Positions 2,992 through 39,793 of a DNA stretch of 64,000 nt are shown in pieces (the stretch's first letter is position 1; every line of letters begins with the position of its first letter). The position numbers were made by a program, and so were the translations under genes. This stretch comes from Haloarcula vallismortis ATCC 29715 (lineage in GTDB: Archaea; Halobacteriota; Halobacteria; Halobacteriales; Haloarculaceae). The stretch is from the NCBI RefSeq assembly GCF_000337775.1, contig NZ_AOLQ01000069.1, forward strand, positions 372,001 through 436,000. The letters run 5' to 3'. The notes beneath the pieces were generated by a model. It saw nothing but the letters and a program-made list of their open reading frames with translations, was not told the DNA's origin and did no database searches.

Positions 2992-4488
2992 TTACTGCCC
3001 GAATTCGAACACGATGTCGCCGTCGCTGACGGTCAGCGAGACGGGTATATCCGAGATATCGTCGGCCGGTACGTCCCACGGAGAGGCCGACAGGACGGCG
3101 AAATCCGCGGCGGCCCCCGGCGTGACCGTTCCCATGCGGTCCTCGTCGAAGCCTGCGTACGCGGCCTCGCTGGTGTACGCCCGGAGTGCCTCGTCAACTG
3201 TCAGGCGCTGGCCCGGCTCCGGCGCGGTGACAGCCTGCTGAACGCCGTACAGCGGCGACAGCGGCATACAGTCACTCCCGAAGGCCAGCTGTGCGCCGGC
3301 GTCCACGAGATCGCGAAACCGGTTCGTCAACGACCGGCGCTCACCAAGTCGCTCATCGTACAGGCCGCCCGAGGCTGCCCAGCGGTGGAAGTTCGGCTGC
3401 GCCGAGACGACCAGCGACGACGCCGCCAGTCGCTCCACCAGATCACCTGTGAGAACCTCGGCGTGTTCGACACGGTGGCGCTCGTCCGCGGCGTCGACCG
3501 ACTCGACGGCGGAAAGCAGCGCGTCGATAGCCGCGTCACCGATGGCGTGGGCGGCGAACTGGAGGCCCGCGTCGTCGACTGCCGACACCAGCTCCCGGAG
3601 GGCTTCGGGGTCCGTCCGCCACTCGCCGACGCTGTCGCTGTCTGCGTAGGGGTCACGGAGCCGCGCGGTTTCGGCCCCGAGCGACCCGTCGATGTAGGTC
3701 TTAATCGCGCCCGTTCGGACCCGGTCGCTCCCGTGGTTCGTCACCAGCCCGAGTTCCCTGATTGCATCGAGGTGGTCCACCCAGTAGTTGAGCCGCACCC
3801 GCAGAGAGAGTGCGTCCTCGGTGTCCAGATCGCGGTACACCCGCGGGGCATGAGATTGTCGCACCATGTCGTGTATAGCGGTAATCCCCCTCGAAAGCGC
3901 CACCTCCTGTGCGGCCAGCAGGTACTCACGGGTCTGTGTGTAGTCGGGCACAATTGCGTCGAAGACAGCTTCGGCGGCTTCCTCGACGAGCACGCCAGTC
4001 GGGGCACCGTCCTCGGTCCGGACGCTGTCGTCGGGCAGGTCCAGGGCGTCCAGCGCGGCGTGGTTCACCGACACCGTGTGGATGTCCTCGCGCGCGGCCA
4101 CGACCGGGCGCTCAGTGCTCACTCTGTCCAGTGTCGCCGCTTGCAACAAGTCTCCATCCCAGTCGCTCTCGTCGTAGCCAAAGCCCAAGACCCAGCCCTC
4201 ACCGTCGTCAGCCGCCAACAGTCGGCCGATGCAGTCGTCTGGGCCGTCTGCCCCGGCGAGGTCCGCCTCGACTGCACGCCGACCGACCATATCCAGATGC
4301 GTGTGGGCGTCGACGAAGCCGGGCAGCAGGATGCCGCCCTGACAGTCGACAGTTTCGGCACCTGCGGTCGAGAGTTTGTCCGGGTCACCGACGGCGGTGA
4401 CAGTCCCGTTCGTCACCGCGACCGCTGACGCCGGGTCGTCGCCGGACAGCGGCCGCACCTCACAGTTCGTGAATACGCGGTCGACCAT
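2992..4488 (-). CDS. Amidohydrolase, YtcJ/imidazolonepropionase-like metal-dependent hydrolase
   Basis: A 498-aa protein of the YtcJ-type amidohydrolase family (COG1574). It opens with the small beta domain (MVDRVFTNCEVRPLSG), then LLPGFVDAHTHLDMVG carries the metal-binding HTH at about residues 62-64. Later blocks GAIKTYIDGSLG, AAHAIGDAAIDALL and FGSDCMPLSPLYG match the metal-centre and C-terminal motifs of the family. The substrate cannot be read from sequence; relatives hydrolyse N-formyl or other C-N bonds. The open frame continues 121 codons upstream into the HMG-CoA reductase gene, but the ATG at 4488 gives the family N-terminus and sits 81 bp from the divergent hmgA start. No partner gene is adjacent. 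Confidence 0.9.
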   Translation of the reverse strand: MVDRVFTNCEVRPLSGDDPASAVAVTNGTVTAVGDPDKLSTAGAETVDCQGGILLPGFVDAHTHLDMVGRRAVEADLAGADGPDDCIGRLLAADDGEGWVLGFGYDESDWDGDLLQAATLDRVSTERPVVAAREDIHTVSVNHAALDALDLPDDSVRTEDGAPTGVLVEEAAEAVFDAIVPDYTQTREYLLAAQEVALSRGITAIHDMVRQSHAPRVYRDLDTEDALSLRVRLNYWVDHLDAIRELGLVTNHGSDRVRTGAIKTYIDGSLGAETARLRDPYADSDSVGEWRTDPEALRELVSAVDDAGLQFAAHAIGDAAIDALLSAVESVDAADERHRVEHAEVLTGDLVERLAASSLVVSAQPNFHRWAASGGLYDERLGERRSLTNRFRDLVDAGAQLAFGSDCMPLSPLYGVQQAVTAPEPGQRLTVDEALRAYTSEAAYAGFDEDRMGTVTPGAAADFAVLSASPWDVPADDISDIPVSLTVSDGDIVFEFGQ

Positions 4489-4569
4489 ACAGAGTCCGGG
4501 AGCGGCGACTGCAAAACGCTTGGCCCGCCAAGAGCAACTGTTAGGAGTCCCGAAGCCACATCGGTCAGT

Positions 4570-5787
4570 ATGACTGACTCCGACGTCGTCGCGCTCGCAG
4601 AGCGCGTTCGTGACGGTGAGTTGCGGCGCTACGAACTGGAAGACCACGCCGACCCCGACACCGCGGCGGCGGCCCGCAGACACCTGCTGGCTGAGGAAAC
4701 CGACGCGGACCTCTCTGCAGTCGGTGACTACACCTTCGACGCCGCCGCCGCCGAGAGCAACATCGAGAACATGGTCGGCGCGGCGCAGGTCCCGATGGGT
4801 GTCGTCGGCCCGCTGCCCGTCGATGGCGGGGCCGCCGAGGGCGACCACCACCTCCCGCTGGCGACCAGCGAGGGCGCGCTGTTAGCTTCGGTCAACCGTG
4901 GCGTCTCGACGATTCGCAACGCCGGCGGCGCGACCGCTCGCGTCCTCAAATCCGGGATGACACGCGCGCCGGTGTTCCGCGTCGAAGACGTGGCCGAGGC
5001 GGGGGAGGTGTCGGCCTGGGTCCGGGAGCACGTCGACACGCTGGCCGACGCCGCCGAATCGACCACGAGCCACGGCGAACTGCAGGACGTGACGCCCTAC
5101 GTCGTCGGCGACAGCGTCTTCCTGCGGTTCTCCTACGACACGAAGGATGCGATGGGCATGAACATGGCCACCATCGCGACGGAAGCGGCCTGCGATATCG
5201 TCGAGTCCGAAACTCCGGCCGACCTCGTCGCGCTGTCGGGCAACCTCTGTTCGGATAAGAAGCCCGCCGCCATCAACGCCGTCGAGGGCCGCGGTCGGAC
5301 CGTCGCAGCGGACGTGCTCATTCCCCACGAACAGGTCGAAGAACGGCTCGATACGACCTCCGACGCTATCGTCGAGGCAAACACGCGCAAGAACCTCGTC
5401 GGGTCGGCAAAGGCCGGCGCGCTGGGGTTCAACGCTCACGCCGCCAACGTCGTCGCCGCGGCCTTCCTCGCGCTCGGACAGGACATCGCACAGGTGGTCG
5501 AGGGGAGCAACGCCATCACGACGGTCGACGCCCGCGAGGACGGCCTGTACGCCTCGGTCACCATCGCGTCGCTGGAGGTCGGCACCGTCGGCGGCGGGAC
5601 GGGCCTGCCGACCCAGTCCGAGGCGCTTGACGTGCTTGGCTACAGCGGCGGCGGCGACCCTGCTGGCAGTAACGCCGACGCGCTCGCGGAGGTCATCGCC
5701 GCTGGCGCGCTGGCCGGCGAACTCTCGCTTCTTGCCGCACTCTCATCCCGGCACCTCTCGTCGGCCCACGCCGATCTCGGGCGGTAG
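4570..5787 (+). CDS. hmgA: Hydroxymethylglutaryl-CoA reductase (class I)
   Basis: NADPH-dependent reduction of HMG-CoA to mevalonate, the committed step to archaeal isoprenoid ether lipids and carotenoids, and the target of statins in haloarchaea. The 405-aa protein has ENMVGAAQVPMGVVGP (about residues 66-81) for substrate binding, MGMNMATIATEA, the SDKKPAA lysine block, GTVGGGTGLPTQ for the nicotinamide site, and a C-terminal SSAHADLG with the catalytic histidine. It lacks the membrane anchor of eukaryotic enzymes, as expected in archaea. It is divergent from the amidohydrolase and probably monocistronic; the next two genes run the other way. Confidence 0.98.
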   Translation: MTDSDVVALAERVRDGELRRYELEDHADPDTAAAARRHLLAEETDADLSAVGDYTFDAAAAESNIENMVGAAQVPMGVVGPLPVDGGAAEGDHHLPLATSEGALLASVNRGVSTIRNAGGATARVLKSGMTRAPVFRVEDVAEAGEVSAWVREHVDTLADAAESTTSHGELQDVTPYVVGDSVFLRFSYDTKDAMGMNMATIATEAACDIVESETPADLVALSGNLCSDKKPAAINAVEGRGRTVAADVLIPHEQVEERLDTTSDAIVEANTRKNLVGSAKAGALGFNAHAANVVAAAFLALGQDIAQVVEGSNAITTVDAREDGLYASVTIASLEVGTVGGGTGLPTQSEALDVLGYSGGGDPAGSNADALAEVIAAGALAGELSLLAALSSRHLSSAHADLGR

Positions 5788-9954: not shown

Positions 9955-10105
9955 ATTCCGCCAATTGACAGTCGCCCCTAAAGGCGTGCCGCTTTGCCTC
10001 AGACGTGGTAACACAGTGCGTAAAGAAAGGGCCACGACCGCTTACAGATACGTTACCGTCGCCACAGCCGGAGGTGATATGCCTTCCGTGTGACAATGGG
10101 TTTGC

Positions 10106-10948
10106 ATGCACGTCATCGTCCACGGCGGCGCGGGCAGCCCCCCTGACTCGCCGACTGACCGGCAGGCGACACTCACCGATGCTGCCGAACAGGCGTCGGA
10201 GACGGAGCGTCCGATGGAGGCGGTACTGGCTGCGCTTCGGCCCCTCGAATCCGACCCGGCGTTCAACGCTGGCGTCGGCGGGGCCGTCCAGAGTGACGGC
10301 GAGGTCCGGACTGACGCCGGATTGATGACCCACGACGGCCAGACCGGAGCGGCGTGTGCAATGTCTGGCGTTGTACACGCTGCGGACGTGGCCCACACTG
10401 TAGCGACTGAGACGCCACACGTCCTCCTTGCCGGTGACGAGGCTGTGGCGTTCGCGGGGGGCATCGGTGTCGAAACCGGTCGTGACCTCACGACTGCAGA
10501 GACGCGAGAACGATACGAGCGTGCGGACCCGCCCAACGGTGGCCCCGCCGACCATCTCGACTGGGTCCGTGAGCATTTCAGCGGAACCGACACTGTCGGT
10601 GCGGTTGCGACCGATGGGGACCGGCTCGCAGCGGCCACGTCGACCGCCGGGCGCTGGTTTGCGCTGGCGGGTCGGGTCGGTGACGTGCCCCAGATCGGCG
10701 CTGGCTTCTACGCGGACGACCGCGGCGGCGCGAGCGCGACCGGCGAGGGGGAGGCCATCGCCCGGTTCGGGCTCGCCCGCCACGCAGTCGAGCAATTAGA
10801 CACGTACGGCCCGCGACAGGCCGCCGAGGAGGCGATTGCGGACTTCGAAGACGCTACTGGTGGGCGCGCCGGCGTCATCGTGCTCGACCACGCCGGCCAC
10901 ACCGGCGCCGAACGGAACACCGCAGCGATGCAGACCGCGAGGCGATAG
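10106..10948 (+). CDS. Isoaspartyl peptidase / plant-type L-asparaginase (Ntn hydrolase)
   Basis: A 280-aa member of the type 2 asparaginase family, which hydrolyses isoaspartyl dipeptides or asparagine after self-cleavage. MHVIVHGGAG opens the alpha subunit; the block NAGVGGAVQSDGEVRTDAGLM is strongly conserved in the family. The autoproteolysis site is the Thr in GTDTVGAVATDG (about residue 168), which becomes the N-terminal nucleophile of the beta subunit; GRVGDVPQIGAGFYAD supplies substrate-binding residues. Length is slightly short for the family. It is 43 bp upstream of map and on the same strand, so a protein-turnover pair is possible. Confidence 0.93.
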   Translation: MHVIVHGGAGSPPDSPTDRQATLTDAAEQASETERPMEAVLAALRPLESDPAFNAGVGGAVQSDGEVRTDAGLMTHDGQTGAACAMSGVVHAADVAHTVATETPHVLLAGDEAVAFAGGIGVETGRDLTTAETRERYERADPPNGGPADHLDWVREHFSGTDTVGAVATDGDRLAAATSTAGRWFALAGRVGDVPQIGAGFYADDRGGASATGEGEAIARFGLARHAVEQLDTYGPRQAAEEAIADFEDATGGRAGVIVLDHAGHTGAERNTAAMQTARR

Positions 10949-38828: not shown

Positions 38829-38899
38829 TCGGTAACGCTTCGATGCAGTGGCGGCCCGGGAAGTCACTTTTAAGCCTGTCCCCGTCTGCCATTCAGTCG

Positions 38900-39793
38900 A
38901 TGCTTGACCGGTTGCTGGGACGAGCGTCGCTGAAGGAGCAGGTGGCCGAACTCGAGGAGGAGAACCACCACCTCGAACGACAGCTCGACGCCGAGAAGGA
39001 GCGCCGCGCCGACGCAGCGACCGAGCGCCAGCGGGCCGAGGCCGAGGTCAATCGGCTGGAGGACCGCATCGTCGAACTCTAGGACCGAGTCGAACGCCTG
39101 CAAAACGAGGAGGGAGAATCGACGTTCCGAGCCGAGGAGACGCTCAGTCGGGCACGTCTGAGTGAAGTCCTCGACCGGCTGGAGTCCTTCGAGACGGAGC
39201 CGGAGGGCGTGTTCACAGCCTACGTCGACGCGGAGCGCTCCCTGCCCGGCCCGGTCCAGAACGCCTTTGGCGACCGCGCGTCGCTGGTCGCAAGTGCCGC
39301 GCCGTGCCTCGCGGTCACCGACGACACCGGCCTCCTGTCGGCCTGTCTGTCCGTCCCAGCGCCGCCGTCGCCGTTCGCCGAGTGGGGCGACGCCGTTCGG
39401 CTGGACCGGTCGTGGTTCGAACCGACCGGCGAGCACGTCGTCGCGCTGGTCCGCTCAGACCTGTTCGCGCTGGGCGAGTACGACGGCCGGGAGCAGACTG
39501 CCTTCCACGGCTTCGACTCGGAGCTCAAGAGCCAACACTCCAAGGGCGGCTTCTCACAGAGCCGGTTCGAGCGACTCCGCGACCAGCAGATCGACTCCCA
39601 CCTCGACCGCTGTCGGGCCGCTATCGAGGCGGTGTCGCCCGACCGGCTGTACGTCGTCGGCGAGGGGTCGGTCATCCACGAGTTCGAAGACCTCGCGGCG
39701 GCGACGAAGCCGGTCGACGCGACCGGCGAGCCCGACGAGGCGCTCGACGATGCCGTCCGGTCGCTGTGGACTGTTCGGTTGCGCGTGCCGTAG
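38900..39793 (+). pseudogene. Vms1/VLRF1-like peptidyl-tRNA hydrolase gene interrupted by an in-frame TAG
   Basis: Codons 1-60 encode a coiled-coil leader (LKEQVAELEEENHHLERQLDAEKERR); codon 61 is TAG (39080-39082). The same frame then continues without a break to 39793 and encodes the VLRF1-type domain with the KGGFSQSRFERLRDQQ motif that bears the catalytic Gln region of Vms1/ANKZF1 release factors. These enzymes cleave nascent chains from tRNA on stalled 50S subunits. A CAG-to-TAG change in the coiled coil would explain it. No good start remains after the stop except a GTG at 39209, which removes the first strand of the domain. Confidence 0.82.

Follow-up and report, generated by a model that had tools for sequence, protein, structure and literature searches.

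A 64,000-nucleotide stretch of the Haloarcula vallismortis ATCC 29715 genome (contig NZ_AOLQ01000069.1, positions 372,001 to 436,000 of the forward strand; hereafter the window, to whose numbering all unprefixed coordinates refer) carries a gene for what its sequence identifies as the archaeal Vms1-like release factor aVLRF-1, interrupted by a single in-frame stop codon. The stop probably arose as a very recent nonsense mutation, CAG to TAG at codon 61, that is private to the strain or species and struck a formerly constrained gene. As an earlier note on this DNA had claimed, the gene (38900–39793, + strand; 297 codons plus stop) runs in one frame from ATG 38900 to the terminal TAG at 39791–39793, and its conceptual translation (297 residues, MLDRLLGRAS...WTVRLRVP) meets a sole internal stop, the premature TAG at 39080–39082 (+ strand), which lies between DRIVEL and DRVERL. 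When this TAG was read through, the product aligned over its full length, without any shift of frame, to the proteins of sister species at 91–95% identity, which indicates one interrupted gene rather than a chance pair of open reading frames (ORFs), and it had a single matching place in its own genome. Besides codon 61 we detected no further lesion in the gene, and the sequences of the core and promoter were intact.

We searched 32 Haloarcula genomes, the H. vallismortis one included, for orthologues of the read-through product. A full-length orthologue was present in 28 other genomes, with internal stops in none, while a further orthologue was a contig-end fragment (residues 1–64) without a stop and two genomes, both incomplete, gave no orthologue match. 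These proteins were 73–95% identical to the read-through product. The earlier note had proposed that glutamine would fit the interrupted position and that a single CAG-to-TAG change explains the stop, and the orthologues agree: all 28 full-length copies are open at codon 61 (position 39080), where they carry CAG, CAA, GAG or GAA and so encode Gln or Glu, never a stop, and CAG is converted to TAG by one C-to-T step. In an order-level sample of 293 genomes, of which 25 were re-examined, an internal stop was found only in the H. vallismortis copy among the matches listed. Since orthologues are free of stops across the genus and among these order-level matches, TAG at codon 61 is private to this genome.

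The proposed assignment to the Vms1/VLRF1 family was supported by a match above the cut-off between residues 178–295 (39431–39784, + strand) and the VLRF1 release-factor domain PF18859 (E = 4.6e-31). The AlphaFold2 model contained one continuous helix over residues 2–96, strands from residue 105 and a confident C-terminal core, and coiled-coil profiles matched the N-terminal part of the protein, such that the stop falls within a predicted N-terminal coiled coil (residues 2–96; 38903–39187, + strand), again as proposed. Residues 105–171, between coiled coil and core, where aVLRF-1 has an eRF1 domain 1-like stop-codon-binding region, were modeled with low confidence. In an alignment of 24 sequences, the GGFSQ motif (residues 216–220; 39545–39559, + strand) was unchanged, and many residues were invariant within the coiled coil as well. 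GGFSQ is the equivalent of GGQ and the counterpart of GxxQ in Vms1, where peptide release depends on the Gly and Gln (PMC5989216). Both this motif and the PF18859 core are without lesion, in line with the earlier description of the C-terminal domain as intact. The protein ends (residue 297) close behind the VLRF1 domain (residue 295) and has no C-terminal Pelota domain. Foldseek searches with the predicted structure placed eRF1, aRF1 and Pelota above a weaker match to Vms1 (6r84_R).

Selection on the gene was assessed with a codon model run on 14 close species. Omega was 0.099 on the H. vallismortis branch compared to 0.041 in the background (2ΔlnL = 4.2), and neutrality (omega = 1) was rejected on this branch (2ΔlnL = 25–29). 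The gene was under purifying selection for nearly the whole branch, and therefore the stop is either very recent or an error. Intact sister tips showed omega values up to 0.095 and 0.149, which suggests that decay, if any, has only just begun, and the changes private to the branch (8 missense and 7 synonymous) were not exceptional once every tip was tested. With neutrality rejected and intact tips reaching comparable omega, an old pseudogene evolving under relaxed selection was unsupported. Comparison of upstream regions showed that a TATA-like TTTTAA (38868–38873, + strand), located about 27 nt upstream of the ATG, is kept in most orthologues and intact here, and it may act as a leaderless-type promoter.

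The frequency of mid-gene stops was assessed by screening the entire 526-kb contig (C69) in both directions against a sister genome, using a stricter screen. Such stops affected 4 of 364 genes on this contig and 4 of 365 in the sister genome, about 1% each; they comprised two TAG and two TGA in the former and two TAG, one TGA and one TAA in the latter, with no amber excess in this comparison. Because the rates in the two genomes are alike, one such event per window is unremarkable, and mid-gene stops here reflect the usual background of decaying genes and errors. Among 44 conserved window genes compared with the sister genome, the aVLRF-1 gene had the sole convincing mid-gene stop: a stop flagged at 9965–10945 was a start-site artefact (true start ATG 10106), and one flagged at 4060–5784, where a long opposite-strand ORF overlaps, was judged an antisense or start-site artefact. 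Elsewhere on the contig, a second in-frame TAG occupies a Gln codon (C69:337832; CAG in the sister genome) after about residue 170 of a gene that, judged from its sequence, probably encodes an MscS-like mechanosensitive channel. Near 301803 and 355470 of C69, sister ORFs of 473 and 919 codons each match in two different frames, and these cases look at least partly like over-long ORFs or start-site artefacts and not true frameshifts.

If the stop is a recent nonsense mutation, the putative promoter, intact here, would still drive transcription, translation would halt after 60 coiled-coil residues, and the catalytic core would not be made, or would be made at a low level from the GTG at 39209. 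The likely effect would be loss of the release factor, and this loss may well be tolerated because other haloarchaeal lineages are without the gene. The event is most likely an ordinary genomic one, not a new mechanism. Two points weigh against a real mutation, namely that the TAG base call rests on one strain and one 69-contig draft assembly, and that the gene has neither another lesion nor a clear relaxation of selection. A sequencing or assembly error, with a true base giving CAG at 39080 and an intact gene, would fit the draft state of the assembly, the intact remainder of gene, promoter and frame, and the normal-looking selection on the branch. The called base also creates a CTAG tetranucleotide (starting at 39079), which is depleted in the window, with 22 occurrences compared to 51 expected from a second-order Markov model and about 213 expected from base composition; a CTAG methylase is described as widespread among haloarchaea (PMC8281068). 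However, the TAG lies in neither a homopolymer nor a repeat, and the equal mid-gene stop rates in the draft and in the three-contig sister genome argue that this assembly is not error-rich. We consider an error unlikely, though a serious alternative to the nonsense mutation.

Termination followed by reinitiation at GTG codon 104 (39209–39211, + strand) would instead yield a core-only release factor of residues 104–297, somewhat like acVLRF-1. This GTG is the first in-frame start past the stop in the ORF list and the sequence, is preceded by GGAG (39196–39199) and GGAGG (39202–39206), sits at the border between coiled coil and core (predicted helix to residue 96, first strand from 105), and leads into a core without lesion. 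Yet just 4 of the 15 close genomes compared have GTG there, most sisters having GTC and one ATC, the purine-rich stretch upstream merely encodes ETEPEG, the distance from stop to GTG is 126 nt, and the many invariant residues of the coiled coil make its loss unlikely to be neutral. A conserved separate start downstream of the stop was rejected on the same count of genomes, and orthologues combining the stop with such a start, the contrary pattern raised in the earlier note, were not found. Being unconserved, GTG 104 is not an evolved start, although it might work by chance. Reinitiation is accordingly improbable in our assessment, and slightly more doubtful still is its strongest form, in which the stop is real, core-only aVLRF-1 is made from GTG 39209, and the coiled coil can be dispensed with or losing it is adaptive, making the gene a natural separation-of-function allele. 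Amber readthrough or recoding, through a suppressor tRNA, pyrrolysine or programmed readthrough, would give full-length protein, and it is favored by the presence on a single contig of two TAGs that replace Gln codons within a frame. Against this, no CUA anticodon occurred among tRNA genes read from 67 Rfam matches (a survey that is not exhaustive, as an odd C9 match and any undetected long-intron tRNAs were left unread), no pyrrolysyl-tRNA synthetase (PylS) exceeded the cut-off, TAG is the terminator of 23 of the 65 genes predicted in the window and of the aVLRF-1 gene too, amber codons were not in excess among mid-gene stops, and no orthologue has TAG at codon 61. Pyrrolysine was rejected on the PylS result, weak below-cut-off matches of the same kind being present in 13 of 14 control genomes, and an amber suppressor, prompted by the TAG at C69:337832, was rejected because the contig screen gave an equal frequency in the sister genome and TGA besides TAG. 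Readthrough, listed as an alternative in the earlier note, thus found no support in a genome that uses TAG as an ordinary terminator, and we give it very little credence.

Two further tRNA loci were observed in this genome. An odd, low-scoring tRNA-like match at C9:119694–119795 (locus L099), which carries a long insert around the anticodon and was not called by ARAGORN, is a candidate degraded tRNA or unusual intron. At C4:254165–257733 (locus L081, 166–3734), about 28 tRNA genes are packed into 3.6 kb and duplicate most of the chromosomal tRNA set; 26 were called by ARAGORN, and tRNA-Asp(GTC) and an intron-bearing tRNA-Lys(TTT) were read by eye from Rfam matches. The array presumably resembles those of some haloarchaeal viruses or plasmids.

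The H. vallismortis genome has open frames for RqcH/NEMF (C65), aRF1 and a Pelota-type protein, the latter two named from PF03464 matches and frame lengths. Across 255 near-complete haloarchaeal genomes, 12 had no aVLRF-1 match, other genera being affected, which indicates that aVLRF-1 is dispensable in nature. In those genomes without a match that were checked with PF18859, the hits fell on longer frames, and three directly read loci appear to encode aRF1 or aRF1-like proteins that carry GGQ. Two such genomes (G088 and G206; loci L105 and L106) encode aRF1-like proteins with AGGQSAQRF, which in G088 is additional to a second match of aRF1 length. Bacterial and archaeal VLRF-1 proteins are standalone and occur independently of other components of ribosome quality control (RQC) (PMC6514570), and a place for aVLRF-1 in archaeal RQC is therefore hypothetical. 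To conclude that the peptidyl-tRNA release step of RQC is missing from this strain, as the earlier note suggested for a real stop, would go too far, given this standalone occurrence and the absence of the gene from several near-complete haloarchaea; any RQC consequence of the stop is something we only infer. A literature search returned no report on haloarchaeal RQC or aVLRF1 function and no activity test of an archaeal aVLRF-1. If the stop is real, H. vallismortis offers a natural aVLRF-1 knock-out or truncation beside intact sister species, useful for probing the role of the archaeal factor in a background where RqcH/NEMF, aRF1 and a Pelota-type protein are retained.

The architecture of the read-through protein is the one published for aVLRF-1, in which a coiled coil precedes the core and the C-terminus has no Pelota domain (PMC6514570). 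The copy here shares with it archaeal origin, the long N-terminal coiled coil, the GxxQ core and the lack of a C-terminal Pelota domain, and differs in its premature stop within the coiled coil. With yeast Vms1 and ANKZF1 (eVLRF-1), the release factor of eukaryotic RQC, it shares an eRF1-middle-domain-like fold and the GxxQ motif, whereas the domain architecture is different and there is no sign here of coupling to Cdc48, Ltn1 or Rqc. The actinobacterial and chloroflexi acVLRF-1 (PF18859) gave the best Pfam match (residues 178–295), but the NCBIfam acVLRF1 cut-off was missed (21 compared to 125 bits) and acVLRF-1 itself has no coiled coil. As a lesion, the interrupted gene resembles strain-specific nonsense mutations in haloarchaeal genes, with a one-step C-to-T stop in a gene that is otherwise intact; nothing structural sets it apart from these, and the difference lies in the gene hit, a conserved translation-related factor.
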